From a virus: a DNA stretch of 24,910 nt. Location of the stretch: IMG/VR virus record IMGVR_UViG_3300026285_000003, positions 1 to 24,910 of that record, one strand, 5' to 3'. The translations under genes and the position numbers were made by a program. Below the pieces are notes generated by a model that saw only the letters and a program-made list of their open reading frames with translations, was not told the DNA's origin and searched no databases. Of this stretch, positions 5,018 to 24,910 are shown piece by piece (within the stretch, counting starts at the first letter, position 1; every line of letters begins with the position of its first letter).

Positions 5018-5370
5018 CCGGCGCGCTCTGGGCCATCCTCCTCGCGCTCATGGCGGTCGTCTCCGCCGTCAGTTTCTATGCTGGCTACCGCTCCGCGCGC
5101 TCTTACCTGAGCGCCGCCCAGGCCGTGCTCAGACTCACGAACGCGGTGGCCGAGCAGAACAACTCCTTCGGCGCCGCGCTGGACAAATCGACGACCCAGG
5201 ATGCACTCTTGCGGAAATCGGTTGAGCACCTCACGGAGGTCGTGGATGCGCGACAACGAGCCGTCGAAGACTCCATCCTCCTCGTCCTACAGGGACTCGA
5301 GAGATCGGGCATTGCTAGAAGCGCAAGCCGAGCGCCGGGCCGCCAAGTTGGCGAGAAGGGCCCGGAATAA
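5014..5370 (+). CDS. Membrane-anchored helical protein, unknown
   Basis: This encodes 118 residues from ATG 5014, overlapping the HNH stop as ATGA. Residues ~4-24 are a transmembrane helix (ALWAILLALMAVVSAVSFYAG), followed by a long polar helical region with heptad-like hydrophobics (AAQAVLRLTNAVAEQNNSFG, then LLRKSVEHLTEVVDARQ). The topology, one N-terminal span and an extended helical domain, is shared with inner-membrane spanins and other phage membrane proteins, but no Rz-type feature is diagnostic. The last ~40 codons overlap an ORF in the terminase frame starting at ATG 5246. It forms a short membrane/export cluster with the 36-residue peptide and the HNH protein. Confidence 0.72.
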   Translation: MTGALWAILLALMAVVSAVSFYAGYRSARSYLSAAQAVLRLTNAVAEQNNSFGAALDKSTTQDALLRKSVEHLTEVVDARQRAVEDSILLVLQGLERSGIARSASRAPGRQVGEKGPE

Positions 5371-5638
5371 AGCAGTCTGGGCGGAACAAAGGAGGCAACG
5401 AGATGCCGAGCACCAAATTCGCCTGCAGAGTCGTCGGGCACGAAATGACCTTCAAAAAGGACCGGGTGCTGGTGAAGGTGAAGCTCAAAAACGAGGTCGA
5501 GGGCCTCAAGGTCGAGCTGATCGTGGACGAGGAGGACCGCGTGAAGTATCCGTTCGGGTCCAGCGCCATGCTCGACTTCAACGTGCAGCAGACGATCCCA
5601 CTCGAGAGGTAGCCGCGCGGCGCGGGGCGGCCGAGGAC
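5246..5638 (+). other. Upstream in-frame extension of the terminase ORF with its own strong ribosome site
   Basis: ATG 5246 has GGAGG (5235-5239) 6 bases upstream and is in the terminase frame, which stays open from here to 7456. The first ~50 codons translate to an Arg/Ala-rich helix (RALLEAQAERRAAKLARRAR). Beyond 5403 the frame runs under the well-supported 5403-5612 gene and becomes Gly/Arg-rich shadow sequence. Either a short overlapping product or a 736-residue terminase form could be made. I treat it as unproven and start the terminase at 5639. Confidence 0.3.
5403..5612 (+). CDS. Small beta-rich protein, unknown
   Basis: This encodes 69 residues from ATG 5403, with GGAGG about 7 bases upstream. 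Third positions are almost all G/C, clearly more than in the overlapping frames, which confirms this frame. The sequence alternates charged and hydrophobic residues (KDRVLVKVKLKNEVEGLKVE, LIVDEEDRVKYPFG), suggesting a small beta-barrel or beta-sandwich. It lies just before the terminase, where a small terminase subunit might be expected. No helix-turn-helix is visible, so that role is not supported. No family recognised. Confidence 0.82.
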   Translation: MPSTKFACRVVGHEMTFKKDRVLVKVKLKNEVEGLKVELIVDEEDRVKYPFGSSAMLDFNVQQTIPLER

Positions 5639-7456
5639 GTGCCGCCCCCGCCTGAGTTCCCCGGCCTCGACTACTACCGCGACCTCGCCCACTTTGAGGA
5701 GTTCTGCCGGGACTGCCTCGTCATCGTCACCAAGCAGGGCCACCGCGTCCGCTTCGTCCTCAACAGCAGCCAGCGGATCATCCTCAAAAGAGTCCGAGAG
5801 CTGATCGCAAACGGCATCCCGCCGCGCATCTTGTGCCTTAAAGCGAGACAGGTCGGGGTCTCGACCCTGATCGAGGCACTCCTTTCCTGGGACTGCCTCA
5901 TGCAGCCCAACCGATCCGCCCTCGTGATCGCGCACACGCTCAAGAGCTCCAAGGTGCTCTTCCGAATGAGCCGGAACTACCACCGCTTCCTCCGCGGCGA
6001 GATGCAGCAGGAGACCCGCATCCAGAACGTGCACGAGATCGAGTTCGATTCGGGGTCACGTCTCCAGGTCGAGGTCCAGGGAGACCCGCGCGGGTACACG
6101 GCGCAGAAGGTTCACCTGAGCGAGTTCGCCTACTACGAGCAGGCTGAGGCCACCCTTCAGGCCATCATGCAAACCGTTCCACTGAGTCTCGACTCGCTGG
6201 CCGTCATCGAGAGCACGGCAAACGGAATGGGTGGGATCGGGCAGAAGTTTCACAAGATGTGGCAGCGAGCGGTCGGCCTGTCGCTCGACAAGGACGTGCC
6301 GGAGGACGAGAAGGGGTGGACGCCCATCTTCGTCCCCTGGTTCGAGCACGAGGAGTACGAGTTTCCGCTCAAGGGGGAGCGCTTCTTCCGTAACTCCGTC
6401 GAGCAGGCGCTCTGCCGAGCTCACCCGCAGATCACGAACCAGAAGCTCAAGTGGCGGCGGTGGTGCATCAGCGCAAATCTGGACGGGGACGAGGTGAGGT
6501 TCGCGCAGGAGTATCCCGCGACTGACCTCGAGGCCTTCTCTCTTTCCGGTCGCCCCGCGTTCGACGTCGAGGCGGTCGAGCACTACACGAAGGCCCTGAA
6601 CGACCTCGTGGGGGCGAACAAGATGCCCGAGTGCACGGAGATCGAGGCGGAGCCCTCGGGATTCGGAGTGCCGCAGATCGTGGTTCACGACCGGGGGCGG
6701 CTCAGGGTCTTCTTCGAGCCCCAGAAGAGGCACACCTACGTCATCGGCGCCGATCCCTCGGAAGGCGACCCCGGGTCGGACCACTCCCCGCTTGCGGTCC
6801 TGGACGACCAGACGATGGACCTCGCCGCGACCTGGTACGGGAAGGCACCGCCCGACGTCCTGGCGCTCCGCGCGATCGACATGGCGCACTACTTCAACGA
6901 CGGGCTCATCATCGGCGAGGCCAACAACCACGGCATCCTCTTCCACGACACGATCACCCAGGTTGGCTACCCGAACCTCTACTACCGGAAGGTGAGCGCC
7001 GAGTCGGTTGCCGGCGAGATCACGGACAAGCCCGGGTACATGGCGACGACCAAGATGCGCCAGCACCTCTTCGACACGCTCAGGAAGTACGTGCGGATGA
7101 AAATGGGGAAGATCCACTGCCCGCATATGATCCAGCAGATCCAAACGCTCATCTACGTCGACGACAAGGTCCAGGCGGGGGTCGGCTCGGAAAAGGACCT
7201 GTTGGTCGCGTTCGGGCTCTGCCTCATGGCGCACCGAGGCTCGATGCACAACCCGCTGGAGGCGCACCCCGAGGAGTTCGTCCGGTCGGTCGCCACGGCC
7301 GCGTCGCTCCTCAAGGAGCGAGAGGGGCCCGAGGTCGCAGCCCGGTACGCGATGGTCCAGAGCGGGATGTCTATGGACGAGGTCCTGAAAATGGAGGATG
7401 CTATCCTGGCTCGGGAGGCCGCGCGCAAGAAGTTCGGAATCGCTGGCTTGCGGTAG
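5639..7456 (+). CDS. terL: Terminase large subunit (DNA-packaging ATPase/nuclease)
   Basis: This 605-residue protein pumps phage DNA into the prohead through the portal and cuts concatemers. The ATPase domain has the deviant Walker A KARQVGVST (68-76) and Walker B ending VIE (189-191). The C-terminal RNase-H-like nuclease domain shows acidic residues at Asp372 (GADPSEGD), Glu427 (GEANNHG) and Asp520 (SEKDLL). The YRDLAHFEEFCRDCLVIV opening matches the normal N-terminus of this family, which favours GTG 5639. The ribosome site there is only moderate (GAGG close to the GTG), and the frame is open upstream to ATG 5246. It stands at the head of the packaging/virion module, with the portal two small genes downstream. 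Confidence 0.95.
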   Translation: MPPPPEFPGLDYYRDLAHFEEFCRDCLVIVTKQGHRVRFVLNSSQRIILKRVRELIANGIPPRILCLKARQVGVSTLIEALLSWDCLMQPNRSALVIAHTLKSSKVLFRMSRNYHRFLRGEMQQETRIQNVHEIEFDSGSRLQVEVQGDPRGYTAQKVHLSEFAYYEQAEATLQAIMQTVPLSLDSLAVIESTANGMGGIGQKFHKMWQRAVGLSLDKDVPEDEKGWTPIFVPWFEHEEYEFPLKGERFFRNSVEQALCRAHPQITNQKLKWRRWCISANLDGDEVRFAQEYPATDLEAFSLSGRPAFDVEAVEHYTKALNDLVGANKMPECTEIEAEPSGFGVPQIVVHDRGRLRVFFEPQKRHTYVIGADPSEGDPGSDHSPLAVLDDQTMDLAATWYGKAPPDVLALRAIDMAHYFNDGLIIGEANNHGILFHDTITQVGYPNLYYRKVSAESVAGEITDKPGYMATTKMRQHLFDTLRKYVRMKMGKIHCPHMIQQIQTLIYVDDKVQAGVGSEKDLLVAFGLCLMAHRGSMHNPLEAHPEEFVRSVATAASLLKEREGPEVAARYAMVQSGMSMDEVLKMEDAILAREAARKKFGIAGLR

Positions 7457-7766: not shown

Positions 7767-8068
7767 TGGCTCCGTTGTACGATTACGTTTGCGAAAAGGG
7801 CCACGTCACCGAGCAATTCCGCCATATGAGCGACCCGGAGCCCGGAGTCGTGCGCTGCGGCTCCTGTCCGCATCTCGCGTCGCGAGTATTCGCCCCGCCA
7901 GCCGTGATCGACGATTTCCCGGAGCACGTGTCCATCGCCTTCGGATGCGTCGTCAAGAATCGAGCGCACCACCGAGAACTCCAGCGGATCCATGGGACGC
8001 ACGACTGGCAGCCCGTCAAGGAGGCCCCGTTGTTCAGCAAGTTGCGTAAGGAGGGGTACGCGATCTGA
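7766..8068 (+). CDS. FmdB-like zinc-ribbon protein
   Basis: This encodes 100 residues from ATG 7766, overlapping the previous stop. The N-terminus APLYDYVCEKGHVTEQF, then RCGSC and ASRVFAPPAV, reproduces the FmdB-type putative regulatory zinc ribbon ('Y.Y.C..cGh.fE........C..C.....RvfspP'). Here one ligand of the first knuckle is His (C-x3-H) instead of Cys. The second half (residues ~55-100) is polar and helical with a histidine run (NRAHHRELQRIHGTHDW). Proteins of this type are common in phages near the portal. Their role is not established. Confidence 0.8.
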   Translation: MAPLYDYVCEKGHVTEQFRHMSDPEPGVVRCGSCPHLASRVFAPPAVIDDFPEHVSIAFGCVVKNRAHHRELQRIHGTHDWQPVKEAPLFSKLRKEGYAI

Positions 8069-9909
8069 TGCCGGGTACGGCGTTCACTCTCGACGACGGC
8101 TCGATCTTCGCCGCCAGCGAGCGGCACGTTCCCGAGACCCCCGCGTTCGGCTCCTTCGGAGACGGACCCGAGGGAGAGGGCAAGATCAGGGCGTGGGTCG
8201 CGGACAAGTGGAATGTCGTATTCCAGCTGAAGCGAGGCGAGCAGGAGAGGCTCAAGACCTGCGAGCTCTACTACGCCGGGTTCCACTACGTCGATCCCTG
8301 GGAGAACCGCAACAACCCGGTCACGAACTACTGCATGTCCACCGTCGAGACGATCTGGCCCATCCTCACGCAGTCGAGGCCCAGGCCCGAGCCCGTGCCG
8401 CGGAACTTCATGGACGCGGAGAAGATCGAGCGGCTCCGGGAGTACTCGACCTACAAGATGGACAGCAGCGGGTTCGACCGGATCTTCCGAATCTGCGTCC
8501 GGGATCTCCTGAAGTACGGCTGGTGCTGCCCGATGATCGGCTGGGACCCGCAGGGGAGGGCGCTCCCGCGCTATCTCTCCCCGTTCGACTTCTACCCCGA
8601 CCAGGCGCCGGACGAGTCGGAACTCGAGTGCTTCTTCATCGCCCGGCCCGTATCGGTGCGCAGGCTTCGCGCGCTTTTCCCGAAGGTCGCCGACAAGATC
8701 AAGCCCGACAACATCGCGAGCCCGAGTTACGAGGTCTTGGTCCAGCCCTACCTCGACGCGGAGGGTCTGTTCGGGGGCATCCGGGGCCCCCAGTTCATAG
8801 GCACGATGCCATCGGCCTCGTTCGAGGACGGCGCGGCCGCGACGACGAGCGGGGAGTACGCGATCGACACCGGCTCCTTCTCCGTGTTCGGCCAGACGGT
8901 CTTCTTGCTCCAGATGTTCGTTCGCGACTACACGACCATGTCCGTGAGATACGAGGGCACGCGCTACATCGACGATCCGACCGGGCAACTCGAGGTGCCG
9001 CACTCGATGACGGTCCAGGAGCCCTGCTGTCCCTCGGGCTGGCGCATGATCCCGATGACCGCGTCGGGCGCTATCCTGGACACCCCGAAGCCCGTGGATC
9101 CGGTGCTCGGGGGTATCCCGCTCGTGATCGGCAGGGACTACGAGCAGGGCGGCAAGTTCTATCCCAAGGGCGAACTGGACGACATCATCCCGATCCAGCG
9201 GGACATCAACCGGAGCGACGCCATGATCGCGCGCGCCCTGGAACTTCAGGGGAACCCGCCAGTCGTGACGAGCATCGACTCCAGACTCTCGACCGACAAG
9301 TCCTCGGTCGAGGGCGGCGAGATCCTCCGCATCGCTCGCGGGTCGACGCTCGTTTATCTTCAGCCGCAGGGCCTTGCGGAGTCGCACTTTGTTCGCCGCG
9401 CCGGCCGCCGTCAGGACATCCAGATCGTCGCTGGCACGCCGGACTCCCTCCAGGGGCAGAGGCCGATCGGGGTCGAGGCAGCGTCCGCGATCCGGCAACT
9501 CACGGAGTCGGGCGCATCGCGAGCACGCGCCAAGGGAGCGGGGCTGCTCGAGTGGGCCGCGCTCTTGCTCCAGAAGATGATCCGGGCCGACATCAGGAAG
9601 AGCGTCGACCCGATCTACTTCCGCACCACGAGCGGCGGCGACATGTGGCTGAACCCGGACGATTACACGGCGGACGACTTCGAAGTTCGGTGGAGTTCGG
9701 ACAGCGGAGACGCTCAGGGTCGCCAAGACAGGCAGGACCTGGACCTGCAGCTCTACCAACTGGGGGTCATCGACGCTCAGCAGCTTCTCGACGACTTCGA
9801 CTACCCCAACAGGGCCGCCATCCTCCAGAGAATTGCGATCAACCGGATCCAAATGGCGCAAGCGGCGGCCGCCACGAACGGCGGCGGACCAAAGGGAGGC
9901 GGACAGTGA
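8068..9909 (+). CDS. Portal protein
   Basis: This 613-residue protein starts at ATG 8068 (TGATG overlap). Its position directly after the terminase block, its size and its content fit a dodecameric portal through which DNA enters and leaves the head. Visible features include an N-terminal wing with NRNNPVTNYCMSTVETIWPI and a mixed beta region with aromatic YLSPFDFYPDQ. A long helical part (DIIPIQRDINRSDAMIARAL, RRAGRRQDIQIVAGTPDS) follows, then EAASAIRQLTESGASRARAK with LLEWAALLLQKMI, the usual clip/stem helices. The end is Ala/Gly-rich (QAAAATNGGGPKGGG). It most resembles long podovirus-type portals. Subfamily not assigned. Confidence 0.9.
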   Translation: MPGTAFTLDDGSIFAASERHVPETPAFGSFGDGPEGEGKIRAWVADKWNVVFQLKRGEQERLKTCELYYAGFHYVDPWENRNNPVTNYCMSTVETIWPILTQSRPRPEPVPRNFMDAEKIERLREYSTYKMDSSGFDRIFRICVRDLLKYGWCCPMIGWDPQGRALPRYLSPFDFYPDQAPDESELECFFIARPVSVRRLRALFPKVADKIKPDNIASPSYEVLVQPYLDAEGLFGGIRGPQFIGTMPSASFEDGAAATTSGEYAIDTGSFSVFGQTVFLLQMFVRDYTTMSVRYEGTRYIDDPTGQLEVPHSMTVQEPCCPSGWRMIPMTASGAILDTPKPVDPVLGGIPLVIGRDYEQGGKFYPKGELDDIIPIQRDINRSDAMIARALELQGNPPVVTSIDSRLSTDKSSVEGGEILRIARGSTLVYLQPQGLAESHFVRRAGRRQDIQIVAGTPDSLQGQRPIGVEAASAIRQLTESGASRARAKGAGLLEWAALLLQKMIRADIRKSVDPIYFRTTSGGDMWLNPDDYTADDFEVRWSSDSGDAQGRQDRQDLDLQLYQLGVIDAQQLLDDFDYPNRAAILQRIAINRIQMAQAAAATNGGGPKGGGQ

Positions 9910-10103
9910 AGCCTGTCAAGCACATCGGATTCGCAGCGGCCGTCGCGAAGGCCAAGGCTGGAGGCGCCACGAACCCGGCGGGAGCGATCGCGGCGGCAGC
10001 GCGGAAGGCGAGCCCGGCAGCGGTGGCGAGAAACCCGAGGCTGCTTAAGGTGAAGCGCGGCAAGAAACGACAGAAGATCGCCGCGATTCGGGCCGGATAC
10101 TAG
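9906..10103 (+). CDS. Small Lys/Ala-rich basic protein, paralogue of next gene at its C-terminus
   Basis: This encodes 65 residues from GTG 9906 (GTGA overlap, GGGAGG upstream). The composition is Ala- and Lys-rich, histone-tail-like (FAAAVAKAKAGGATNPAG). The last residues KKRQKIAAIRAG closely match the C-terminus of the next gene (KKRRQRIAEIRAG). The charge suits DNA or scaffold binding inside the prohead. The position between portal and scaffold supports a head-assembly or internal-protein role. No family recognised. Confidence 0.72.
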   Translation: MKPVKHIGFAAAVAKAKAGGATNPAGAIAAAARKASPAAVARNPRLLKVKRGKKRQKIAAIRAGY

Positions 10104-11501: not shown

Positions 11502-12554
11502 ATGACCTCTTCGTTCCCCTGGAACCAGGTGAACGTAATGGTCCAGGACTTCATCATTCCCACGATCCAGGACCAGATTTTCCTCTCGAACGCGATGCTG
11601 AATCGCATGAGAGGGCGGGTAAAGCACTTCACTGGAGGCCGCAGGATCGTAGTACCACTCTCCTGGCGCACGCAGGGCGGGCTGAAGTGGTTCGCCGGGG
11701 CGGACGTATTCGCGCCGACGATCCGCGATCCCTTCCAGGCAGCCGAGTTCACGCCGAAGAACGCCAACGTCGATCTCACGATCGATTGGGACGAGGAGAT
11801 GACCGCCTCGGGCCTGAACCAGGTCATGGACCTGATGGCGGCCAAGGGCGAGATGGCCCGGAACACCTTCTTCGACGGGATGGCGAGCGAGATCTACAAC
11901 GACGGCACGGACACGCGCGCTCTCGCCGGCCTCCAGTACGCGCTCAAGGAAGGCGCCACCGGCGGCCAGGTGCCTCCGACGATGACCTACGGCGGGATCT
12001 CTCGGAGTTCCACGTTGAACACGTGGTGGAACCACAACTCCGACAACCCGACCACGGCCTACGTCACCGGAGCCTCGAGCACCTTCGCGGGCTCGGCGTC
12101 GACGGGGCCGAACTTCGCGCCCATCAACAAGATGTTCGCGAACATCAAGCTCCGGTCCGGCAAGCTACCCACGCTGATCCTGAGCAACGTCGGGGCGTGG
12201 AGCGACATCCACTACAACCTCGTGAAAAACGAGCGCTACCAGCGTCCTCAGCAGCAGACGGACCTGTTTAAGGCGGGCTTCGAGAACTTCATGTTCCGAA
12301 ACGCCACGTGGGTCCAGGACGAGAAGGCCCCGCGGGACACGAGCGCGAACAAGTTCGAGAAGGTCTACATCCTCTACGAGCCGTCCATTCGGCTCCACGT
12401 GGATTCCCGAGCCGACTTCGCGTTCGAGCCGTTCCGCAAGCCCCACAACCAGATGGTCCGCACCGCCTACATCCTCTGGCGGGGCGAGCTCATCATCAAC
12501 GAGCCGCGTGCGAACGGGGTCATGCCCCGCATCGACACGTCCGGCGTCTCGTAA
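11502..12554 (+). CDS. Major capsid protein (HK97-fold)
   Basis: This encodes 350 residues from ATG 11502, with TAGGAG about 8 bases upstream. The pattern GRVKHFTGGRRIVVPLSWRT, then WFAGADVFAPTIRDPFQAAE and a TASGLNQVMDLMAAKGEMAR spine-helix region, followed by MASEIYNDGTDTRALAGLQYA, matches a known group of HK97-fold coat proteins. The C-terminal part (VRTAYILWRGELIINEPRAN) is the typical closing strand region. There is no obvious propeptide, which fits the separate scaffold gene upstream. It should be the most abundant virion protein. Confidence 0.92.
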   Translation: MTSSFPWNQVNVMVQDFIIPTIQDQIFLSNAMLNRMRGRVKHFTGGRRIVVPLSWRTQGGLKWFAGADVFAPTIRDPFQAAEFTPKNANVDLTIDWDEEMTASGLNQVMDLMAAKGEMARNTFFDGMASEIYNDGTDTRALAGLQYALKEGATGGQVPPTMTYGGISRSSTLNTWWNHNSDNPTTAYVTGASSTFAGSASTGPNFAPINKMFANIKLRSGKLPTLILSNVGAWSDIHYNLVKNERYQRPQQQTDLFKAGFENFMFRNATWVQDEKAPRDTSANKFEKVYILYEPSIRLHVDSRADFAFEPFRKPHNQMVRTAYILWRGELIINEPRANGVMPRIDTSGVS

Positions 12555-14675: not shown

Positions 14676-16724
14676 ATGCCGGGGCTCGGTCCGTCAAGCC
14701 TCGGGATAACCTTCTACGTACCGCCAGGGAAGCGATCGTCCCAGTGGGACGTGCTCTCCGATATCGCGGGCCTGGGGCTCCTTGAGGCGTCCGCTACGAG
14801 CCCGCTGTTCTTCGCGGCCTGCGCCATCGCCGCGAGCGGAGTCATCTCCTCGGCCTCCGCGAGCCTCACCCTGGGCGCAACCGCCGCCATCACCGGATTC
14901 GCCACTGTCTCCGCCGCGTCCGGTGGCATCTTTCAGCTTGGCGGCCTTCTCGGCGGCGACATCCTCTACGACGACGACCTGAACGCCGACGCCTCGCTCG
15001 ATGCCGTCGCTGGCTCCTACCACATGGAGGACCTCTACCAGAAGAGCCAGGCGAACGGCTGGAAGGCCGCCGACGGCATAACAGCAGCCATCGAGAAGTG
15101 GGGCGGGATCGTCTTCGGGCTCCTCGCGCGCTACTGGTTCCACGTGTCGATCCAGAACGGCGACGGAGTGAGCCTCAAGACCACCACGCTCAAGATCTCC
15201 CGGTGCAACTTCACCTTCGATACCGGGAAGACGATGAAGGTGAGCGCAGTCGGCATCGCGAACCGCTGGACGATCATGGGGCTGGTGCAGCAGGCGGGAT
15301 CGGCCTCTCCTGTCGGCTACGACGGCTGCGAGGGCACGCTCGGAGCCACGACAACCATCGACGGGCAGACCCAGATTTACGGGACCAAGTTCCGCACCGT
15401 CGGGGCGAACGTGCAGCTGACGATCCGCCGGACGAGCACGTCCGCAGCCGGGGACGCGGTGAACGTCACCCTGGAGAGCGCCGGAACCGGCGTCGCGACG
15501 CTCGCCTTCGGCACGTCCGCGATCCCGTTCGCGCGGGCGCATCACATCTACCTCAACACGATCGGTTCCACGACGGCCGGCGTGAGCCTCTTCAACGTCA
15601 TCGACGCCGACGACCTCCACGTGGACGGCATCGCGAACAACGCGATCAACGTGATCTCCGCCTACACGCTGATCCGGGATGGGGTCATCCACGGCACGCC
15701 CGGATCGGTCGATCTGCGGGGGAGCACCGGCGTCACGGACCTCGTGGACTTCACGTGGTCCGGTACGGCCGCGCAGCAGACGAGCACGGCGACCACGAAC
15801 GACTACCGCACCTACTCGCCGATCGTGGTGGACGCGAACGGGAACGCCTCAGCGGGCGACCTCATCGAACTTCTCGATGCGTCGATGACTGTGGTGGTGT
15901 CGGCGACGTCGAACGCGGACGGGATGATCGCCTACACGACGCCGGGCTTCACGGGCATCGCTATCGCGAACGCGGTGAAAGCCAGGATCCGGGGGCTCAC
16001 CGGCTGGGTCGACCAGGGCCCATTCACCGTGCGGCGGAACGGCCTCGTCGTGCAGAAGTTCACTTGGCCCAGGCGCTCCTACGTGGTCGGCGGGAACACG
16101 TACTACCAACTCTTCCCCGTCTACGACACGATCGGGCCCGCAGAGACCCTCAAGGCCGCCTTCAGCGTGAATCCTGGAGGCGGGCAGCCGCCGCTTTCGG
16201 TCCAGTTCACGGACCGCAGCACGACGAGGCCCGGAAACGCGATCACGGCCTGGTTCTGGGACTTCGGGGACGGGAACACGAGCACGGTGCAAAACCCGGT
16301 CCACGTGTATCTCTCGGCGGGGCTCTTCCAGGTGAGCCTCACCGTGACGGACGCGAGCGGGCAGGCGAGCGAGTCGGACATCAACGCGGTCTACGTCGCC
16401 ACGACCCCTGGAAGTTACGTGCGAAAGGCCATGCCGGATGTGCCGTACGTGCATCAGGACGGAGCCGTGACGCCGTTCTCCCCGAGGGACATCCCGGTGC
16501 AGCAGTTCACGCCGGTCAACCCGCCCGGGACCGCGTACACGCACAAGGCGGGACCCGTGACCGACCTCACGCACCGAGCGCAGCCAGTGACGGCGTACAA
16601 ACGCAAGGGCGTCCCTGCGGTCGGCTATACTGAGTTCGGCCTTCCGGTCCCTGCGCCGGAGGAGGAGTTCATTATCTTCGGTGGCATGGGCGGGATGCCG
16701 GTGGAGGGGGCGGAGGAGCCATGA
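14676..16724 (+). CDS. Tail-fiber/adhesin-like protein with PKD domain and C-terminal decapeptide repeats
   Basis: This encodes 682 residues from ATG 14676. An N-terminal Ala/Ser/Gly-rich hydrophobic region (about 30-95) is followed by an acidic segment (DILYDDDLNADASLDA). A long beta-rich, probably beta-helical body follows (about 140-400), with many Thr, Asn, Gly and Val. Residues ~494-578 form a PKD domain, identified by its WDFGDG core, the AFSV..G..PLSVQFTD opening and VSLTVTDASG ending. Residues 582-661 are eight decapeptide repeats, followed by an acidic end. PKD domains mediate protein or carbohydrate contacts on surfaces, so a receptor-binding or fiber role is likely. The stop overlaps the tailspike start (ATGA). 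Confidence 0.82.
   Translation: MPGLGPSSLGITFYVPPGKRSSQWDVLSDIAGLGLLEASATSPLFFAACAIAASGVISSASASLTLGATAAITGFATVSAASGGIFQLGGLLGGDILYDDDLNADASLDAVAGSYHMEDLYQKSQANGWKAADGITAAIEKWGGIVFGLLARYWFHVSIQNGDGVSLKTTTLKISRCNFTFDTGKTMKVSAVGIANRWTIMGLVQQAGSASPVGYDGCEGTLGATTTIDGQTQIYGTKFRTVGANVQLTIRRTSTSAAGDAVNVTLESAGTGVATLAFGTSAIPFARAHHIYLNTIGSTTAGVSLFNVIDADDLHVDGIANNAINVISAYTLIRDGVIHGTPGSVDLRGSTGVTDLVDFTWSGTAAQQTSTATTNDYRTYSPIVVDANGNASAGDLIELLDASMTVVVSATSNADGMIAYTTPGFTGIAIANAVKARIRGLTGWVDQGPFTVRRNGLVVQKFTWPRRSYVVGGNTYYQLFPVYDTIGPAETLKAAFSVNPGGGQPPLSVQFTDRSTTRPGNAITAWFWDFGDGNTSTVQNPVHVYLSAGLFQVSLTVTDASGQASESDINAVYVATTPGSYVRKAMPDVPYVHQDGAVTPFSPRDIPVQQFTPVNPPGTAYTHKAGPVTDLTHRAQPVTAYKRKGVPAVGYTEFGLPVPAPEEEFIIFGGMGGMPVEGAEEP
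16419..16658 (+). repeat. Eight tandem decapeptide-coding units (30 bp each)
   Basis: Reading from Val582 of the PKD protein, the sequence divides exactly into eight 10-residue units, for example VRKAMPDVPY, SPRDIPVQQF, THKAGPVTDL, THRAQPVTAY and KRKGVPAVGY. Position 10 is Tyr, Phe or Leu in seven of eight units, Pro recurs near position 6 and Val near 7, and positions 2-3 are often basic. The DNA has diverged more than the protein pattern, so this is an old, selected repeat and not a recent slippage product. Confidence 0.75.
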
Positions 16725-18715
16725 GAAGGGTCGGAAGGCTGCTGGCGACACTGTTGTGCGCGGGATTGCTCTGGGCGCAGCCCGCGTCCGCGGTCCTCTT
16801 CTTCGGTTCTGGGGCAGGCGCTGTGTGGGGGATGGCGAAGGGCGCCTTCAAGGCCACGCCCTACGACGGGGACGCCACGGGGCTCGCAAACATCGACGCC
16901 TCGTTCCCGCTGGGTGGACTCGGGCAGCTCGGCCCGGGGACCGAGGGGCTGACGCTGCCGGCCTACCGAGCGGGCGTGTGCTACCTCTGGTGTCGATACG
17001 ACGCCTACCGGATCGTCGGGACCCCGTTCGAGAGTTGGCCTGGAGGGATTCGGCAGTTCCGCGTGGACTCCCTGGGCGTCCGTGCGGACTCCGGGATGAT
17101 CGCGCCGAGATTCGGTCCTGCGTCTGGCTCGGGCTTCGGCGGGGCGATCCGGGTCGTGGATGGAGTGACGTTTCCAGCTACCGACGTCGGGGTGAACGCC
17201 GCCATCGCTGACTGCCCCTCGGCTGGTTGTACCGTGTTCCTCCCTGCCCAGACAATCACGGTCAACACGCCGATTCTCTATCCGGCAGGAAAGCGGGTCC
17301 GACTGATATGCGCGGGACGTGGAGCAACGGTTCTCAAGCGCGGGTCGGGCACCAATTACGTCATTTCCGGTACAAGCACGCACCTTCCAGGGGAATGGTA
17401 TCGGTCCCTTGAGAATGTGACGCTTGATGGGAACGGACAGAACGGTACTATCGACAGCCTCACTGACTTCACGCTGTTTACGATGCGGGACGTGACGATC
17501 CGCAACGGTCCGCAAACCGGCCTCAAGCTCACATCGTTCTTCGATTCCCACTTCGAGAACGTCTACGTAGAGGAGTGTGGCGACGCCACGCATCCGTTTG
17601 TTGTGCTGGACGCCACAACCAATTCCTCTGACACCTTCAATAACTGCCAGTTTTACAACCTCCACATCGAGGCGAATAACCAGGACGCGATCTTCCTGGA
17701 CCTGATCGGGAACGGCACGAATGCCGTAGTAGGAAACTACTTTTACGGGCTGAAGGTGCACGGAAACGCCTCTACGGGAAACCCGGCCAGACCGCTGATC
17801 CGGCTTGGGACGAACGCGACGAGCAATGTTTTCGATGGGGGTGAGGTTTCCTACGGTAACGGCTCGTCTCAGGTTGAGTGTTCTGGGACGCGCAATAGGT
17901 TCAACGCTCAGCTCTTCGGCATCGCCGCCGCGCATCCTCCAGCCAGAGCTTTTCAGTTCATCGGTGGCCCGAACTCGGTTTTCGAGACCCACTTCATCAA
18001 CTCGAACCTGTACACGACGGCCTGTATCAGGTTCGACTCCGGGGCGAACAACTGCCTGGTGATGGGTCCGTTTCTGGCTAGCGGGGGGACCTCGATCTCC
18101 GACGCCGCGACGGGAACTATGCTTATCTACAGGGACGAGACCTCCGGACAGAACATCGTCACCGTTGGCACAGCCACGATCAACACGCTGGCCGACGTTC
18201 CTGGGAACATGACTTTTGGGAACGGCTCGATCGTTAGGATGAAGGATACGGGTGGCACAGCCAGGAACCTGCTCCGTACCTTCGGCACGAATTTGCTCAA
18301 GTGGTATCCGTTGGCTTCCGGACAGGCGACTCGCTTCCAGAACTTTGCCGACAACGCGACGAATTTTGAGATAGGAGACAACGGACTCAGCACGGCGCTG
18401 ACCTTCCACGCCGACTCCGTAAGCACGCCGGGCGGCCTCTTTGTGGGCGGCCAGAGGGTGAACAAGATCCTTAGAGCCTCTGCCACGCTCGACTTCGATC
18501 TCACGGCCGTTACGTGCCAGGACCTCACGATCACGTTGGCTGGAGCCGCACTAAACGATGAGGTTGTCCTTGGGGTTCCGAACGGATCGGTTACGAGCGG
18601 AGTGGATTACACCGCATGGGTGTCCGCTGCAGGCACCGTGACGGTGAGGGCCTGCACGTTCATTGCGGCCCAGAATCCCGCGAGCGGAACCTTCAAGGTC
18701 ACGGTAGTCCAGTGA
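16721..18715 (+). CDS. Signal-peptide-bearing right-handed beta-helix tailspike (pectate-lyase-like)
   Basis: This encodes 664 residues from ATG 16721 (ATGA overlap). The first ~25 residues are a classical signal peptide (LLATLLCAGLLWAQPASA, cleavage after ASA). Residues ~145-420 begin with DVGVNAAIADCPSAGCTVFL and PAGKRVRLICAGRGATVLK, the start of pectate-lyase-superfamily beta-helices. Repeating coils follow (LENVTLDGNG, MRDVTIRNGPQTGLKL, FENVYVEECG, FYNLHIEANNQDAIF). The last ~80 residues (ASATLDFDLTAVTCQDLTIT, ending FKVTVVQ) match a C-terminal beta domain common on environmental phage fibers, probably for trimerisation or carbohydrate binding. Likely a capsule or exopolysaccharide depolymerase. 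Its central part is visibly less G/C-rich than the flanks, suggesting acquisition. Confidence 0.85.
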   Translation: MRRVGRLLATLLCAGLLWAQPASAVLFFGSGAGAVWGMAKGAFKATPYDGDATGLANIDASFPLGGLGQLGPGTEGLTLPAYRAGVCYLWCRYDAYRIVGTPFESWPGGIRQFRVDSLGVRADSGMIAPRFGPASGSGFGGAIRVVDGVTFPATDVGVNAAIADCPSAGCTVFLPAQTITVNTPILYPAGKRVRLICAGRGATVLKRGSGTNYVISGTSTHLPGEWYRSLENVTLDGNGQNGTIDSLTDFTLFTMRDVTIRNGPQTGLKLTSFFDSHFENVYVEECGDATHPFVVLDATTNSSDTFNNCQFYNLHIEANNQDAIFLDLIGNGTNAVVGNYFYGLKVHGNASTGNPARPLIRLGTNATSNVFDGGEVSYGNGSSQVECSGTRNRFNAQLFGIAAAHPPARAFQFIGGPNSVFETHFINSNLYTTACIRFDSGANNCLVMGPFLASGGTSISDAATGTMLIYRDETSGQNIVTVGTATINTLADVPGNMTFGNGSIVRMKDTGGTARNLLRTFGTNLLKWYPLASGQATRFQNFADNATNFEIGDNGLSTALTFHADSVSTPGGLFVGGQRVNKILRASATLDFDLTAVTCQDLTITLAGAALNDEVVLGVPNGSVTSGVDYTAWVSAAGTVTVRACTFIAAQNPASGTFKVTVVQ

Positions 18716-19236
18716 GGCCCCTACTGCTTCTCCTGGCCCTGGCGTTCGCCAATGGCGCGTACGCGAGCACGTATACGATCGTTTTCACCGTGCCGTCGAC
18801 GAACTCCTACGTCGAGGGCGACAGCGTCTTCTACTGCGACGGCGGCGGGCCTACCGACGACCTCGCGCAGGTCCGCTTCATGCGCCAGGACGTGATCGGC
18901 GGGCAGCCCTACGCGTTCGACTCGCTGGACGTTCGCGGCATGGAGGCGCAGGAGGACTCGCTGCACGTGGAATCGGGCCCAGGCACGCACGTCTACGCGA
19001 TCGCCGTGGACGATTCGGGCAACGGCGCTTGCTGGTCCGCTGGGGTCTACCTTCCCGGATACGTGACGGCGGTGGGAGACGTAGGAGGGCCAGAGTGGCG
19101 GAATCCACTGAGCGTGCGGACCTACGACGTCCAGGGCAGGCTCGCCGAGGGACACCTGGCCTCTGGCGTCTATCGGATGGTAGAGATTTACGCCGACGGC
19201 CGAAGGCGCTACACGAAGATCGTGGTGGTGCGTTGA
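18712..19236 (+). CDS. Exported beta-rich protein with sorting-domain-like C-terminus
   Basis: This encodes 174 residues from GTG 18712 (GTGA overlap). The N-terminus RPLLLLLALAFANGAYA is a signal peptide. The middle is a beta-sandwich-like domain with two cysteines (VFYCDGGGP and GACWSAG) that could form a disulfide outside the cytoplasm. The last ~40 residues contain SVRTYDVQGRLAEGHLASGVY and end YADGRRRYTKIVVVR. This follows the pattern 'v..yd..Gr.v...l..GvY...v..dg.....kivv.r' seen in FlgD-like and type IX secretion C-terminal sorting domains of FCB-group bacteria. In a phage gene this is unusual. It may come from the host and act at the cell surface. Confidence 0.75.
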   Translation: MRPLLLLLALAFANGAYASTYTIVFTVPSTNSYVEGDSVFYCDGGGPTDDLAQVRFMRQDVIGGQPYAFDSLDVRGMEAQEDSLHVESGPGTHVYAIAVDDSGNGACWSAGVYLPGYVTAVGDVGGPEWRNPLSVRTYDVQGRLAEGHLASGVYRMVEIYADGRRRYTKIVVVR

Positions 19237-19427
19237 TCCCTGGGCTCGAACTCAAACGCCTCGCGCGCCAGCGAGTGCTCTTCCGCTGCCCGAGGTGCGG
19301 GACGTCCTTCTCGTTGCAGCCGGCCGTCGCCAAGGACCGGAGCCGGAACGGCCGCCGCCGCCCCTGCTGCTCCAACTCCTGCGCGGTATCCGCAGTGCAC
19401 GCACGCCGTCGCGGCGAGAGAATCTAG
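19233..19427 (+). CDS. Small arginine-rich zinc-finger protein
   Basis: This encodes 64 residues from TTG 19233, which overlaps the previous stop as TTGA. A first knuckle, FRCPRCGTSF (Cys21, Cys24), and a second, PCCSNSC, separated by a basic stretch (KDRSRNGRRR), make a compact four-cysteine zinc ribbon. The end is Arg-rich. The size and fold suit nucleic-acid binding. Ribosome-site support for the TTG is weak and translation probably depends on coupling. It abuts the next gene directly. It is odd to find such a protein inside the tail block. Confidence 0.62.
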   Translation: MIPGLELKRLARQRVLFRCPRCGTSFSLQPAVAKDRSRNGRRRPCCSNSCAVSAVHARRRGERI

Positions 19428-22400
19428 GTGCCGTTCCCGACCTGGGCAAACCTCGGTCCCGCGAGCGGCGGCACGGGCGCTGTCACCGTCAACTACCCGG
19501 TCAACTACTCCACAAACGACATCGCCGTACTGGTTTGCCAGTCTTCGAACGAGACGGTCACGGAGACGAGCGGAGGATGGACGCAGAAAGCGGCGATCGG
19601 GCTCGGCACTCCCGGCGCGCCAGGATCGACCAAGCTGACGGTGTTCTGGAAGCGCGTGACGAACGGGGGCGGAGAGACCCCCGCGGCGCTCGCCGACGCG
19701 GGCGACCACGTGAACGGCATCATCGCGATCATTCGCGGCTGCCCGCTCACCGGCGATCCCTTCGATATCGTCGCGACCGGAAGCGAAGCGACCGTGGACG
19801 CCAGCCTGGACCTGACCGGGCCGAGTTCGAGCTTGGGCGAGTGCCTGGTGCTGATCACAGCGTGCCACGCCGTCGACACCGCGAACCCGGAATGGTCCGG
19901 GCAGACCGCTCCGAACCTCGGAACGCTTACCGAGAGGTACGACAAGTCCATCACGATCGGGAACGGCGGCGGAACCGCGATCTGGAGCGGCACGCTGGCG
20001 GCCGCGGGCGCGGTCGGGCCATTCTCGGCGATCGGCGACGTGGCGACGGTGAAGGCGTGGGCCGTCCTGGTCCTGAAGCCCAAGGCCAGGCTCCTAAACC
20101 TGAACGCGATTCCCTCGATCCCGGGGCCCTGGCAGTGGTCGAATCCTGGCGCCGGCGGCACGTGGGCGCAAGCATCCGCAGGGCCGACCGGGATCATGCT
20201 CGTCGCGAGCGATCTCGCGGGCCTGTACATGAGCACCGATCGAGGGAACTCCTGGACCGGGATCGGGAACAAGCAGGGGCTTAACGAACAGTTCATCCAC
20301 GCCGCAGGCTTCGATCCGACCGATCCAGCGATCATGTACGCGGCCTCCGCGCACGGGGTCTATCGGACGGCGGATACCGGAGCGCACTGGACGCTCGTGA
20401 GCTCCGATCTCTGGATCGGCGACGTCGTGCCAGCACCGTCGAACCACGACATCGTCTACGCGGCCTACCATCCGACCCAGCTCGACCCCGCGACCGGGAT
20501 TCTCAAGAGCACCGATCGCGGCCTCACGTTCTCGGTCGTCGCGAGCGACCTGCCGACGAACCTCACGATCAACCGCCTCATGGTCGATACGCTGAATCCC
20601 GCGATCCTCTATATCGTCTCCTCCTACCACGACTTCAACCACACGCCGGATGACGCGATCTTCAGGAGCGCCAACAGCGGGGCGAACTGGACCAGGATCA
20701 GCGGCGTGCTCGAAGCCGCCGGGAAGGTCTGGGACTGCGTGGTCGATCGTTCAACCCCGACGACGCTCTGGGCGACGATCTACACGGGCGACCCCTACGT
20801 GACGCCCTTCACCTGGGCGGGATCGGCGTGGAAGAGCATCGACTCCGGGACGACCTGGACCAACAAGGTCGCGCACACGGGGAACGTGATGGTGAAGCAC
20901 AACGACTCAAACACCATCTGGATCGTCGACAACAAGCGGAGCCAGGGGAACGCGGAGGAAGGCTTCTGGGAATCGACGAACGGGGGGACCAGTTTCGCCA
21001 AGAAGAGCACCCTGTCCGACTACGACTTCGGATGGCAGGCCAACGCGGACCGCTCCTACGGGGCCGGGAACTACGGCATCTGCCACGGCTTCGGCCAGGA
21101 CCTCTCCGACCCGAACACGGTTCTCCAGGTGAGCCCTCAGTTCGTCCACGGCTCCTTCGACGCTGGCCTCGTCTTCCACAACCTCTACACCTACCAGGTC
21201 TCGGCCAACGCCTGGATCACGCGGCGTCTCGAGAACCTCACCGTCGGGGAAATCAGGATCAGCCCCGCCCTGGGAGGGCTCGTCTACGGAGGTGCTTTCG
21301 ATACCGGCATGTGGAGGAGCTTCGATGGCGGGCTGAGCTGGCAGTCGTGCAACTCGCCGGATTTCACCGGGGACTGGAACGGGGAGGGCGGGAACACGTG
21401 CACGATCATGCCCGACCCAGGCGACGAGAATGTCGTGTGGGCCGCCCAGGGGCGCACCGAGACGACGTCGAACCTCATCAAGAGCGTCACGAAGGGCGAG
21501 GCCGGCGGATGGATGGCCGTCTCTGGCCTGCCGGCGGACAAGTTCGTCTACGGGCTCTCGATCAACCGCCGGACCACGATCGGGAACCGGACCCTGTTCG
21601 TCACGATCGGGGACAATACTTCGCGGAGCGGGGACGTCTACCGGAGCACGGACGACGGCCTCACCTGGAGCCTCGTGCTATCTCCCACCCTGAACGCCGC
21701 AGCCCGGGTCACGGCGGTCGATGCCGTCGATGGAAACCTCGTCTACGCCGGAGGAGAGGGCGGGCTCTGGCGATCGACCACGGGCGGGGCCTCGAGCTCC
21801 TGGACGCTCCTCACGACACCGGCGGACTTCGTGGGCACGACGACCGGGAACAGCCTCGGTGCCCTGAGATGGAGCGGCGTGGCGTGGGTCGAGGCGGACC
21901 CTACGGTGGCAAATCGCCTGTACGTGGCCTGCTACGGAGACACGGGAACGAATCGCGGGCTCTACCGGAGCGACGACGCGGGGATCACCTGGACGAAGAT
22001 TCTCACGGGCGACTACATCCGGCGCGTGGGCGTGCATCCGACGAACTCGGACATCGTGTTCGCTGCCTCCGCGAGGACGGCGACGTCCCCCGCCGCGAAC
22101 AGTTATCTCTCCAAGGGCATCCGTCGGAGCAAGGATTCTGGTGCGAGTTGGGAGGACGTCAACGATAATCTCCCGTGGACGCTCGCGGGACCGATCGCCG
22201 TGGGACCGGGCGATCCCTACGACGTGTTCGTGGGGAGCACCGGGAACGGCTTCCTGAAGCGGACCTTCTCGTCGGCCGATGAGGCGCCGGCAATCGAGGT
22301 GAACGTGAGCACGTTGGTTAGCTACCTCGTCGACGACGCGGCCCAAGCCATCGGCGATCCGAACAAGCAGCGCATCCAGATCCCCCAGTGGCTCTCGATA

Positions 22401-22973
22401 TACAACCGCAGCAACCGCGAACTCTGCCAGAAGGCGAACGTGCTGCGGTTCCTCGACGCCTTCGATCTGATTGCGAGCCAGACCAAGTACGACTTCCCAC
22501 AGTCGATGGTGGTGATGAACGGCATCGCTGTGTCCGAGAACCCCAGCGACCAGACCTCCTTCCGATGGATCAAGGAGATGTTTGAGGACGAGTTCAGGGA
22601 AAAGACCACCTCGAACTACCCGTCGGCGACGCTCCCCGAATCGTACTTTTGCACCTCCGGCTGGTTCTACCTCGTCGGCGCTGCTACCGGGACGATCGTC
22701 GACGGCGGGTGCATCGACTACTTCGGGCTCCCGGACCGGATCACGGACTTGAGCACCGCGCTGATGCAGGTGGACGACATGGCGCAGGACTACCTGGTGC
22801 GCCTGATGATCATTCACGCGCTAGAGTCCCGGAACCGCTACGCGGAGGCTGAGGAGCAGCTCAAGCTCTGGAACGCCGACATGGAGACGCTGAAGGACAA
22901 GCTCGACGATAGAAGCGTCGACCGCAGGTCCACCATCGCCCCTCGCCGCAATCGGCTCAGCGGCATGAGATAA
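19428..22973 (+). CDS. BNR/Asp-box beta-propeller fused to head-tail adaptor-like domain
   Basis: This encodes 1181 residues from GTG 19428. Residues ~1-222 form a beta-rich N-terminal domain of the 'GD..vl.v......GWT......g....l.vfWK.' type common in phage and environmental proteins. Residues ~225-945 hold about eleven Asp-box motifs, such as STDRGNSWTGI (from 269), SIDSGTTWTNK, SFDGGLSWQSC, STDDGLTWSLV, SDDAGITWTKI and SKDSGASWEDV (from 901). This is a sialidase/sortilin-like propeller, probably glycan-binding or hydrolytic. The last ~222 residues (from ~960) resemble SU10-like podovirus head-tail adaptors: LVSYLVDDAAQAIGDPNKQR, IPQWLSIYNRSNRELC, DFPQSMVVMNGIAVSEN and LVRLMIIHALESRNRY. The frame is continuous with no stop between the parts. 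A strong internal ribosome site precedes the adaptor part. Confidence 0.85.
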   Translation: MPFPTWANLGPASGGTGAVTVNYPVNYSTNDIAVLVCQSSNETVTETSGGWTQKAAIGLGTPGAPGSTKLTVFWKRVTNGGGETPAALADAGDHVNGIIAIIRGCPLTGDPFDIVATGSEATVDASLDLTGPSSSLGECLVLITACHAVDTANPEWSGQTAPNLGTLTERYDKSITIGNGGGTAIWSGTLAAAGAVGPFSAIGDVATVKAWAVLVLKPKARLLNLNAIPSIPGPWQWSNPGAGGTWAQASAGPTGIMLVASDLAGLYMSTDRGNSWTGIGNKQGLNEQFIHAAGFDPTDPAIMYAASAHGVYRTADTGAHWTLVSSDLWIGDVVPAPSNHDIVYAAYHPTQLDPATGILKSTDRGLTFSVVASDLPTNLTINRLMVDTLNPAILYIVSSYHDFNHTPDDAIFRSANSGANWTRISGVLEAAGKVWDCVVDRSTPTTLWATIYTGDPYVTPFTWAGSAWKSIDSGTTWTNKVAHTGNVMVKHNDSNTIWIVDNKRSQGNAEEGFWESTNGGTSFAKKSTLSDYDFGWQANADRSYGAGNYGICHGFGQDLSDPNTVLQVSPQFVHGSFDAGLVFHNLYTYQVSANAWITRRLENLTVGEIRISPALGGLVYGGAFDTGMWRSFDGGLSWQSCNSPDFTGDWNGEGGNTCTIMPDPGDENVVWAAQGRTETTSNLIKSVTKGEAGGWMAVSGLPADKFVYGLSINRRTTIGNRTLFVTIGDNTSRSGDVYRSTDDGLTWSLVLSPTLNAAARVTAVDAVDGNLVYAGGEGGLWRSTTGGASSSWTLLTTPADFVGTTTGNSLGALRWSGVAWVEADPTVANRLYVACYGDTGTNRGLYRSDDAGITWTKILTGDYIRRVGVHPTNSDIVFAASARTATSPAANSYLSKGIRRSKDSGASWEDVNDNLPWTLAGPIAVGPGDPYDVFVGSTGNGFLKRTFSSADEAPAIEVNVSTLVSYLVDDAAQAIGDPNKQRIQIPQWLSIYNRSNRELCQKANVLRFLDAFDLIASQTKYDFPQSMVVMNGIAVSENPSDQTSFRWIKEMFEDEFREKTTSNYPSATLPESYFCTSGWFYLVGAATGTIVDGGCIDYFGLPDRITDLSTALMQVDDMAQDYLVRLMIIHALESRNRYAEAEEQLKLWNADMETLKDKLDDRSVDRRSTIAPRRNRLSGMR
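22296..22307 (+). promoter_or_regulatory. Internal ribosome site and in-frame GTG before the adaptor domain
   Basis: GAGGTGA (22296-22302) precedes an in-frame GTG at 22305, right at the junction between propeller and adaptor-like domain. Initiation here would give a 223-residue protein of normal adaptor length. Since GAGGTGA also encodes residues of the fusion, this may be chance. The match in position to a domain border is what makes it notable. Confidence 0.4.
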
Positions 22974-22974
22974 C

Positions 22975-24910
22975 ATGAGCCCCCGCACCGCGACTCGCGA
23001 GATCGCGATTCCGCTCCGGGACTTCTCGGGCGGGATCCAGGGGGGCGTGTCCGAGCGCGGCCTGCGCAGGATCAACTGGCTAAGTGCCGCTGACAACCTC
23101 TACGGCAGGCCCTACCGTGGCCTCCGCGTGCGCCCCGGAACGCGCGATCTATCGAGTGCGGTCCTCTCGGACGCGCCCCACAGCCTCATGGGCTTCTACT
23201 CCGGCGGGGGCAACAAGCTCTTCGTCGGCGCGGACGCCAAGATCCTCGAAGTCACGAGCACCGCGTACACGCTTCAGACCCTCCCCGGCGGCCACCCGGC
23301 ATCGTCGGACATCTACACGCACACGAACCTGGACGGCGTCCTTGTGGCGACCCAGCGCACGGGCGCGCTCGGGCCGCTCATGTACGACGGCGCCTGGAAG
23401 GAACTCAAACTCCCGAAGCCGACGGACACGATCGGGTTCGCTGCGGACAGCGCGATCATCGCTCCCGCGATCGGTGTCGACGTCGGGGACCACTACTACC
23501 GGATCCGCTGGCGCTTCGCGAAGGGGTCGAGCCTCGTGGGTCCTACGAGCGCCAAGCATACCGTGGCGGCCCCGAACCGGACCGTGAACATCAACGCCGG
23601 GCTCACGGCCTCGGGCCGCAGCGACTACATCGGCTGGACGCTAGAGCGGACCAAGGTGAACGGCACCGTGACGGGCCCGTTCTGGTTCGTGAAGGACGGC
23701 ACGGGAACGACGACTACAGACGACACTGCCGACGCTTCCCTGGGCTACTTGGCCGATGAGGGCCTGCACGGGGAACCGCCTCACGGGGACGGGATCGCGA
23801 GTTTCACGAACCGCCTGTGGCTCTGGGCCGGGTCAACCATCTACGTGAGCCAAGCCGCCTTCGGGGACCTCGAAGCTACTGGGATCGCAAACTTCGATGC
23901 CGACCTCACTTTTCCGGTGGCGAAGGACGACGGCGACATGATCCAAGTCTGCGTTGTCGTCCTGGACGAGCTCCTGATCCTGAAGAAGCGCAGCGTCCAC
24001 GTGATCTCCGGAGTGGACCCGGACAGCTACGTGCTCACGAGCGTCGTATACGCCGATCCCGCGCGCGGTAGCGAGGCTGGCTGCGCGGGCCCGAGGGCCG
24101 CCTGTGTGATCGGCGGAGTCGCCTACTTCTGGGGAGAGTCGGGTGGGCTCTTCACGTACTCGAAGGGAGCGGTCAAGCCGGTCGCGTGGAGCGAGATGGG
24201 ACGCTACCTGGACGAGGTGAATCCAGCGGCGCTCGACAATCTGCTCCTGACGAACCACCAGGGCAACTACATGATCGCCTGGTACCCGAGGAGCGGCACC
24301 ACTGCGGACGAGCAACTCGTTCGAGATGTCAGATTCAAGATCCAGTGGTGGCACTGGAAGGGCTGGGGCGCGCGCGACGCGCTCGAACTCAAGTCGGGAA
24401 TCCTGGGCGCGACCTCGCTTGCCTACTGCGACCCCAGGAACCGAGCCTCCTTCCCGGCCATCTCGAACGGGGCGACCATCACGGGCTCTGGCGTGCCGGG
24501 CGCGACCACCGTAAGCGGCGCCGTGGTCGCTGGCGCGACGAGCCTGACCATGAGCGCCAACGCCTCCGCCACCGCGCAGAACGTCACGTTGACGATCGCG
24601 GGCATCGACCGGCCGCGCTGCAACACGGTCTCTGGTTCGCCCACGGTCACGATCTCGGAATACCACTGCTGGTCCGCGTTCGACGGGTTCAAGGACGAGA
24701 AGGATTCGAGCGGCGGCGGCGGCCAGGCCGTGTCGGTGCTCCAGGAGCATCCCTGGCTGGACGACGGAATGCCGGACGACTGGAAGGACCTGGACCGGAT
24801 CGCATTCTCCTCCGAGGGGGATCTCACGCCCGTCAACGTCTCGATCCAGACGGACCCGGCGGGAGGCGCGTCGTCGGTCTCCTTGATCGCTCAAGGAAGC
24901 GGGGCCGATT
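22975..24910 (+). CDS. Tail nozzle/tubular-protein-like virion protein, 3' end outside window
   Basis: The frame opens at ATG 22975, one base after the preceding TAA, and runs 645 codons without a stop to the window end. The start region shows IPLRDFSGGIQGG, then NWLSAADNLYGRPYRGLRVR and PGTRDLSS. The pattern 'dFsGGi......p...l..a.N......G.l.vRPGt..l' followed by successive beta-propeller-like blades (FYSGGGNKLFVGADAKILEV, FTNRLWLWAGSTIYVSQAAF, LLILKKRSVHVISGVDPDSY) fits podovirus nozzle or T7-gp12-type tubular proteins. These follow the adaptor gene in short-tailed phages. Residues ~504-540 (GSGVPGATTVSG and following) look like a small inserted beta module. Family assignment is by pattern and position. 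Confidence 0.78.
   Translation, partial: MSPRTATREIAIPLRDFSGGIQGGVSERGLRRINWLSAADNLYGRPYRGLRVRPGTRDLSSAVLSDAPHSLMGFYSGGGNKLFVGADAKILEVTSTAYTLQTLPGGHPASSDIYTHTNLDGVLVATQRTGALGPLMYDGAWKELKLPKPTDTIGFAADSAIIAPAIGVDVGDHYYRIRWRFAKGSSLVGPTSAKHTVAAPNRTVNINAGLTASGRSDYIGWTLERTKVNGTVTGPFWFVKDGTGTTTTDDTADASLGYLADEGLHGEPPHGDGIASFTNRLWLWAGSTIYVSQAAFGDLEATGIANFDADLTFPVAKDDGDMIQVCVVVLDELLILKKRSVHVISGVDPDSYVLTSVVYADPARGSEAGCAGPRAACVIGGVAYFWGESGGLFTYSKGAVKPVAWSEMGRYLDEVNPAALDNLLLTNHQGNYMIAWYPRSGTTADEQLVRDVRFKIQWWHWKGWGARDALELKSGILGATSLAYCDPRNRASFPAISNGATITGSGVPGATTVSGAVVAGATSLTMSANASATAQNVTLTIAGIDRPRCNTVSGSPTVTISEYHCWSAFDGFKDEKDSSGGGGQAVSVLQEHPWLDDGMPDDWKDLDRIAFSSEGDLTPVNVSIQTDPAGGASSVSLIAQGSGAD

Follow-up and report, generated by a model that had tools for sequence, protein, structure and literature searches.

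A short-tailed phage usually makes its host-recognition spike and the adaptor ring of its neck from different genes, and the locus studied here raises the question of what becomes of that arrangement when the two lie in one reading frame. The locus is part of a virus record of 24,910 bases (hereafter the window), which is a metagenomic fragment. According to a preliminary description made from the sequence, a single frame joins a propeller of some 945 N-terminal residues to what looks like a complete podovirus adaptor of about 222 residues, and translation of the window does give such a frame, which starts with GTG and runs through 1181 aa with zero internal stops. The features of the locus, together with two context genes, are collected in Table 1; judged by its position only, 7992-10103 is probably the portal gene. 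Here, we consider it rather likely that this short-tailed phage has a spike fused to its adaptor in a gene translated from two starts, and that a minority of the ring subunits would carry a tethered propeller.

Table 1. Coordinates of the fusion gene, its parts and its context in the window.
Feature	Coordinates	Strand	Basis
Terminase large subunit (context)	5201..7456	+	phrog_2, E 2.6e-16
Major head protein (context)	11502..12554	+	phrog_9953, E 7.1e-35
Fusion ORF: N-terminal domain, double propeller, linker, adaptor	19428..22973	+	Open frame; equal length and no indel in L001
N-terminal domain, about residues 1-223	19428..20096	+	Similar to L004:1999-2679 and to Erythrobacter phage XM05 minor tail protein
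Predicted tandem beta-propellers, GH74/sortilin type, residues 252-947	20181..22268	+	PF15902; Foldseek match to GH74 5fkq on a low-confidence model
Linker, residues 948-959	22269..22304	+	Alignment with L001; frame open throughout, SSADE kept, last seven residues divergent
Internal Shine-Dalgarno GAGGTGA, GAGG core 5 nt before GTG	22296..22302	+	Sequence; -11.8 kcal/mol
Adaptor (SU10 type), 222 aa, internal start GTG 22305-22307	22305..22973	+	Separate gene in four relatives
Nozzle-like gene, running off the window	22975..24910	+	Matches to phrog_3287, phrog_511 and phrog_376; directly after adaptor in L001, L004, L005 and L006 too

To place the fusion among its relatives, we sought further copies of the propeller in viral contigs, and the only contig found was 3300036859_000534 (43.9 kb; L001). 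This encodes a matching fusion, likewise of 1181 aa, which is 80% identical to that of the window with 0 indels over 1181 codons, and the fusion is seen in these two genomes only. In four other relatives (L004, L005, L006, and the distant L014), the adaptor is a separate gene of 219-222 residues; it begins at the residue matching the internal start of the fusion, and the nearest in-frame stop lies 3 to 57 codons before it. The last 222 residues of the fusion match the whole of this separate gene in all four. While the existence of relatives with a separate true adaptor had been named in the preliminary description as a point against the fusion, the adaptor that we found in these four is the homologue of the fusion's own C-terminal part.

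Family searches point the same way. With the curated Pfam cut-off for SU10_adaptor (PF24175) at 27 bits, the family is matched at 35.9 bits in the fused L001 frame (an open frame of 1181, aligned over positions 6-191 of 194) and also by the separate adaptors of L005 (37.8 bits), L006 (48.7 bits), and L014 (63.9 bits). The Pfam search did not report PF24175 for the window's copy or that of L004, and gave no match in the last 234 residues of the window fusion, whose adaptor part shares 72% identity with its L001 counterpart. Moreover, there is a profile match (89%, E 2.3e-6, from residue 3 onwards) to a Kafunavirus structural protein encoded between the head and nozzle genes. The AF2 model of the adaptor part is poor (pLDDT 44), and on this low-confidence model the best structural match was to 8jov_2 from the portal-tail complex of phage GP4 (Z 9.2, rmsd 3.2 for 91 residues, with 3-201 on 3-210), the second-best match having a Z of 3.0. 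Judged from these comparisons, residues 960-1181 are a complete SU10-type adaptor (PF24175), which bears out the preliminary assignment. Two other identities were rejected, namely kinship with T7 gp11 (PF17212; hhalign probability 0.9%, with T7 gp11 matching PF17212 and the separate relatives PF24175) and an Mx8-type tail tubular protein, matched weakly at a probability of 7.5%. Neither adaptor nor nozzle had a tblastn match in INPHARED, a search with A4 found no adaptor in genome contigs, and sequence searches of the PDB returned nothing usable. Each of four records searched contained one adaptor match, and no second, true adaptor was found elsewhere in the fused genomes by the searches made, one of which was run without a positive control.

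The part before the adaptor is not a propeller throughout. Whereas the proposed propeller holds for residues 252-947, residues 1 to ~223 seem to form a domain of their own at the N-terminus, which is related to a stand-alone 226-aa protein of L004 and gives, over residues 10-219, a 30% identity-level match to the minor tail protein of Erythrobacter phage XM05. For the propeller proper, PF15902 (Sortilin-Vps10) is matched at 57.2 bits (E 1.7e-15) in the window fusion and at 61.9 bits in L001 (curated cut-off 33), and BNR repeats gave a weak Pfam match within the N-terminal 947 residues of the window fusion. The PF15902 match is that of a shared propeller repeat and is no evidence of a sortilin. 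In a Foldseek search with residues 252-947, GH74 chains head the list with sortilin behind them, and 5fkq was matched at E 3.8e-19 over 751 columns, using a model with a mean pLDDT of 42 and for which the two-domain rmsd is large. The nearest NCBIfam family is the F510_1955-type glycosylhydrolase, which was matched below its cut-off. An enzyme activity of the propeller part is possible.

At the junction of the two parts, both the GAGGTGA motif and the in-frame GTG of the preliminary description are present, and the start position and Shine-Dalgarno core are conserved in L001. The window's internal site ranks 1 of 54 in-frame start codons by Shine-Dalgarno energy, while the long-form start reaches -3.7 kcal/mol; in L001, the gap is smaller, with -8.0 kcal/mol for the internal start versus -6.4 kcal/mol for the long-form one. 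Codon 960 also has the best joint Shine-Dalgarno (-11.8 and -8.0 kcal/mol) among the 23 in-frame start codons that the two fusion genes have in common. The linker residues 953-959 read APAIEVN in the window versus QAAQGVN in L001, their codons having diverged with the number kept, and at the core itself the encoded residues differ (E-V-N versus G-V-N), as do the core (GAGG versus GGAG) and the start codon (GTG versus ATG, both able to initiate). Even so, each core lies 5 nt before its start codon. A core and spacing kept despite changed linker codons is the pattern expected if a free adaptor is still made there, and on these sequence grounds the long and short ring proteins are probably both made from one reading frame. 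At the other end of the gene, a 64-aa ORF with a TTG start and a weak zinc-ribbon match (window 19233-19427; L001 about 6967-7159) has its TAG directly before the fusion start in the window and L001, and the small ORF and the fusion may be translationally coupled.

The genes that separate the head genes from the adaptor differ in part from one relative to the next, as expected of a recombining spike region. In the window, this region includes a gene for a 682-aa protein with a PKD domain (14676-16724; PF18911, 1.1e-17), with related genes in the corresponding position of L004 and L005 and a weaker likeness in L001. Signal-peptide-like starts (e.g. MRRVGRLLATLLCAGLLWAQPASA), judged by eye, are found in the window genes at 16721-18715 and about 18709-19236, as well as in L005 (7338-9278) and L004 (7589-9991), and are odd for virion proteins. 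The L004 gene encodes 800 aa with cadherin-like and Big_9 repeats and ends 9 nt before the separate adaptor gene; since both are in the same frame, a single stop codon separates them. Homology of this gene to the propeller, which a tblastn match running through a TAA had suggested, was rejected once its reading gave the cadherin/Big_9 repeats and signal-peptide-like start.

From the gene architecture as observed, we infer two products and a mixed ring. Recombination within the variable spike region would have placed a stop-less propeller gene in frame ahead of the adaptor gene in an ancestor shared by the window and L001. Translation from the weak start at 19428 would then give the long form of about 125 kDa, consisting of N-terminal domain, double propeller, and adaptor, and that from the strong start at 22305 would give an excess of free adaptor of about 25 kDa, with MSTLVSYL as its predicted N-terminus. 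With a strong internal and a weak external start, long subunits should be a minority, and a ring in which every copy carries a propeller, which the preliminary description raised beside a mixed ring, seems unlikely given these starts in the window. Because it has no stop of its own, the propeller would be made only as a fusion, barring cleavage or a ribosome frame change. Both forms would assemble on the portal, with a minority of the 12 subunits carrying a covalently tethered propeller, and this would bind or cut host surface polysaccharide and replace the usual non-covalent docking of fibres on the adaptor ring. In SU10, the dodecameric adaptor ring is the attachment site of six long fibres, and the C-terminal loop of the adaptor grips the portal (PMC9509320), so that an N-terminal extension would leave the portal contact free. 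Whether the ratio of the two starts in one frame sets how many of the 12 adaptors carry the covalent double-propeller enzyme or adhesin is, in our estimate, evenly balanced. Against a mixed ring, an adaptor N-terminus situated in the channel would bar the long form from being built in, and twelve, or even six, double propellers of such size may not fit round the neck. Moreover, the strengths of the two starts differ less in L001.

Alternatively, the stop codon may have been lost by accident and the resulting read-through tolerated, a reading that we regard as possible and distinctly less probable than the mixed ring. The adaptor from the internal start would then suffice for the neck, while the long form, though made, would stay out of the ring, its propeller acting elsewhere or perhaps being released by a protease at the linker. 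The strong internal start, the divergence of linker residues 953-959, and the presence of the fusion in two genomes only are all consistent with this. Also in its favour, an open linker surviving by drift is not improbable at the measured stop frequencies. Since stops are rare (1.7% of codons) in the remaining forward frames of this G+C-rich DNA, an open linker that has lasted across a single genome pair is no proof of selection for the fusion. However, at a dS of about 0.75-1.1 between the window and L001 fusions, dN/dS is 0.11-0.23 across all three domains and 0.11-0.14 in the propeller, from which the propeller is judged to be under purifying selection and thus used, and there is no in-frame stop to free it.

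It seems improbable that all twelve adaptors are of the long form, with the internal start an unused relic of a separate gene. The frame is open, the adaptor is single-copy, and the internal site could indeed be inherited from a separate gene, but both genomes retain a Shine-Dalgarno core and start codon with unaltered spacing despite the changed linker codons, the long-form start of the window is much the weaker, and crowding round the neck would be expected. Less probable again is that ribosomes shift frame by +1 or +2 around the junction, ending the propeller and making free propeller the main long product. In each of the two genomes, the two other frames do run into stops close by (at -50, +1 and -25), though such stops are expected there; inspection, rather than a systematic search, recognised no slippery site or stimulatory structure, and the in-frame SSADE of the linker is common to the window and L001. 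Lastly, while the window is a metagenomic fragment, a sequencing or assembly error that deleted a stop codon is very hard to credit, because L001, a separate contig diverged to a dS of ~1, shares the open frame without an indel and the stop would have to have been lost in both records.

Returning to the mixed ring, its components can be compared with known systems. The likeness to SU10 gp11-type adaptors (PF24175) consists in the family match of the fused L001 copy, the position before the nozzle, and the helix - beta - helix layout of the models; in SU10, however, the adaptor is separate and fibres dock non-covalently, whereas in the present fusion the adaptor bears a 100-kDa propeller protein at its N-terminus. 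For T7 gp11 with its gp17 fibres, which sit at the adaptor-nozzle junction (PMC6702177), the role and gene order (adaptor, then nozzle) are expected to be the same, yet there is no detectable sequence relationship and the T7 genes are separate. GH74 xyloglucanases and sortilin Vps10 have large or tandem beta-propellers with BNR-type repeats, as predicted here, and are the best structural matches of the modelled residues 252-947, but here the propeller is viral, with a tail-protein domain before it, an adaptor after it, and an activity that is putative. Long and short products from one reading frame or gene start are made by lambda C/Nu3 and Q-beta coat/A1. Those are other proteins, and here the short form would be a neck adaptor and the extension an N-terminal spike.

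In a limited search of open-licence papers, we found no described spike-adaptor fusion, in agreement with the preliminary description, which knew of no phage with this arrangement. Both halves belong to known families, and it is their join and the two-start arrangement for which no described precedent was found in that literature. As a small sample for other fusions, SU10 adaptors were sought in 393 genomes from the phylum of a Spirochaetia MAG, where they occurred in only five places, and none of these five had an N-terminal fusion. Two candidates were rejected, a 1195-aa frame in G143 being a sub-threshold match inside a lipoprotein-like protein and a 459-aa frame in G007 being an adaptor with an insertion instead. 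The latter (L039 2204-3574) is an SU10-type adaptor of 457 aa, and its large internal insertion, weakly like a galactose-binding F5/F8 type C domain (13.8 bits, short of the cut-off), hints at a ring able to accommodate additional sequence.

If the mixed ring is true, the mounting of the spike differs from non-covalent docking. With the long form present in virions, a covalent fusion to the neck ring would amount to the gain of a host-recognition protein in one recombination step, with no docking domain to evolve. The retained internal start would explain how such a change was survived, in that the normal adaptor is still made, and the stoichiometry of an appendage would become testable from translation signals.
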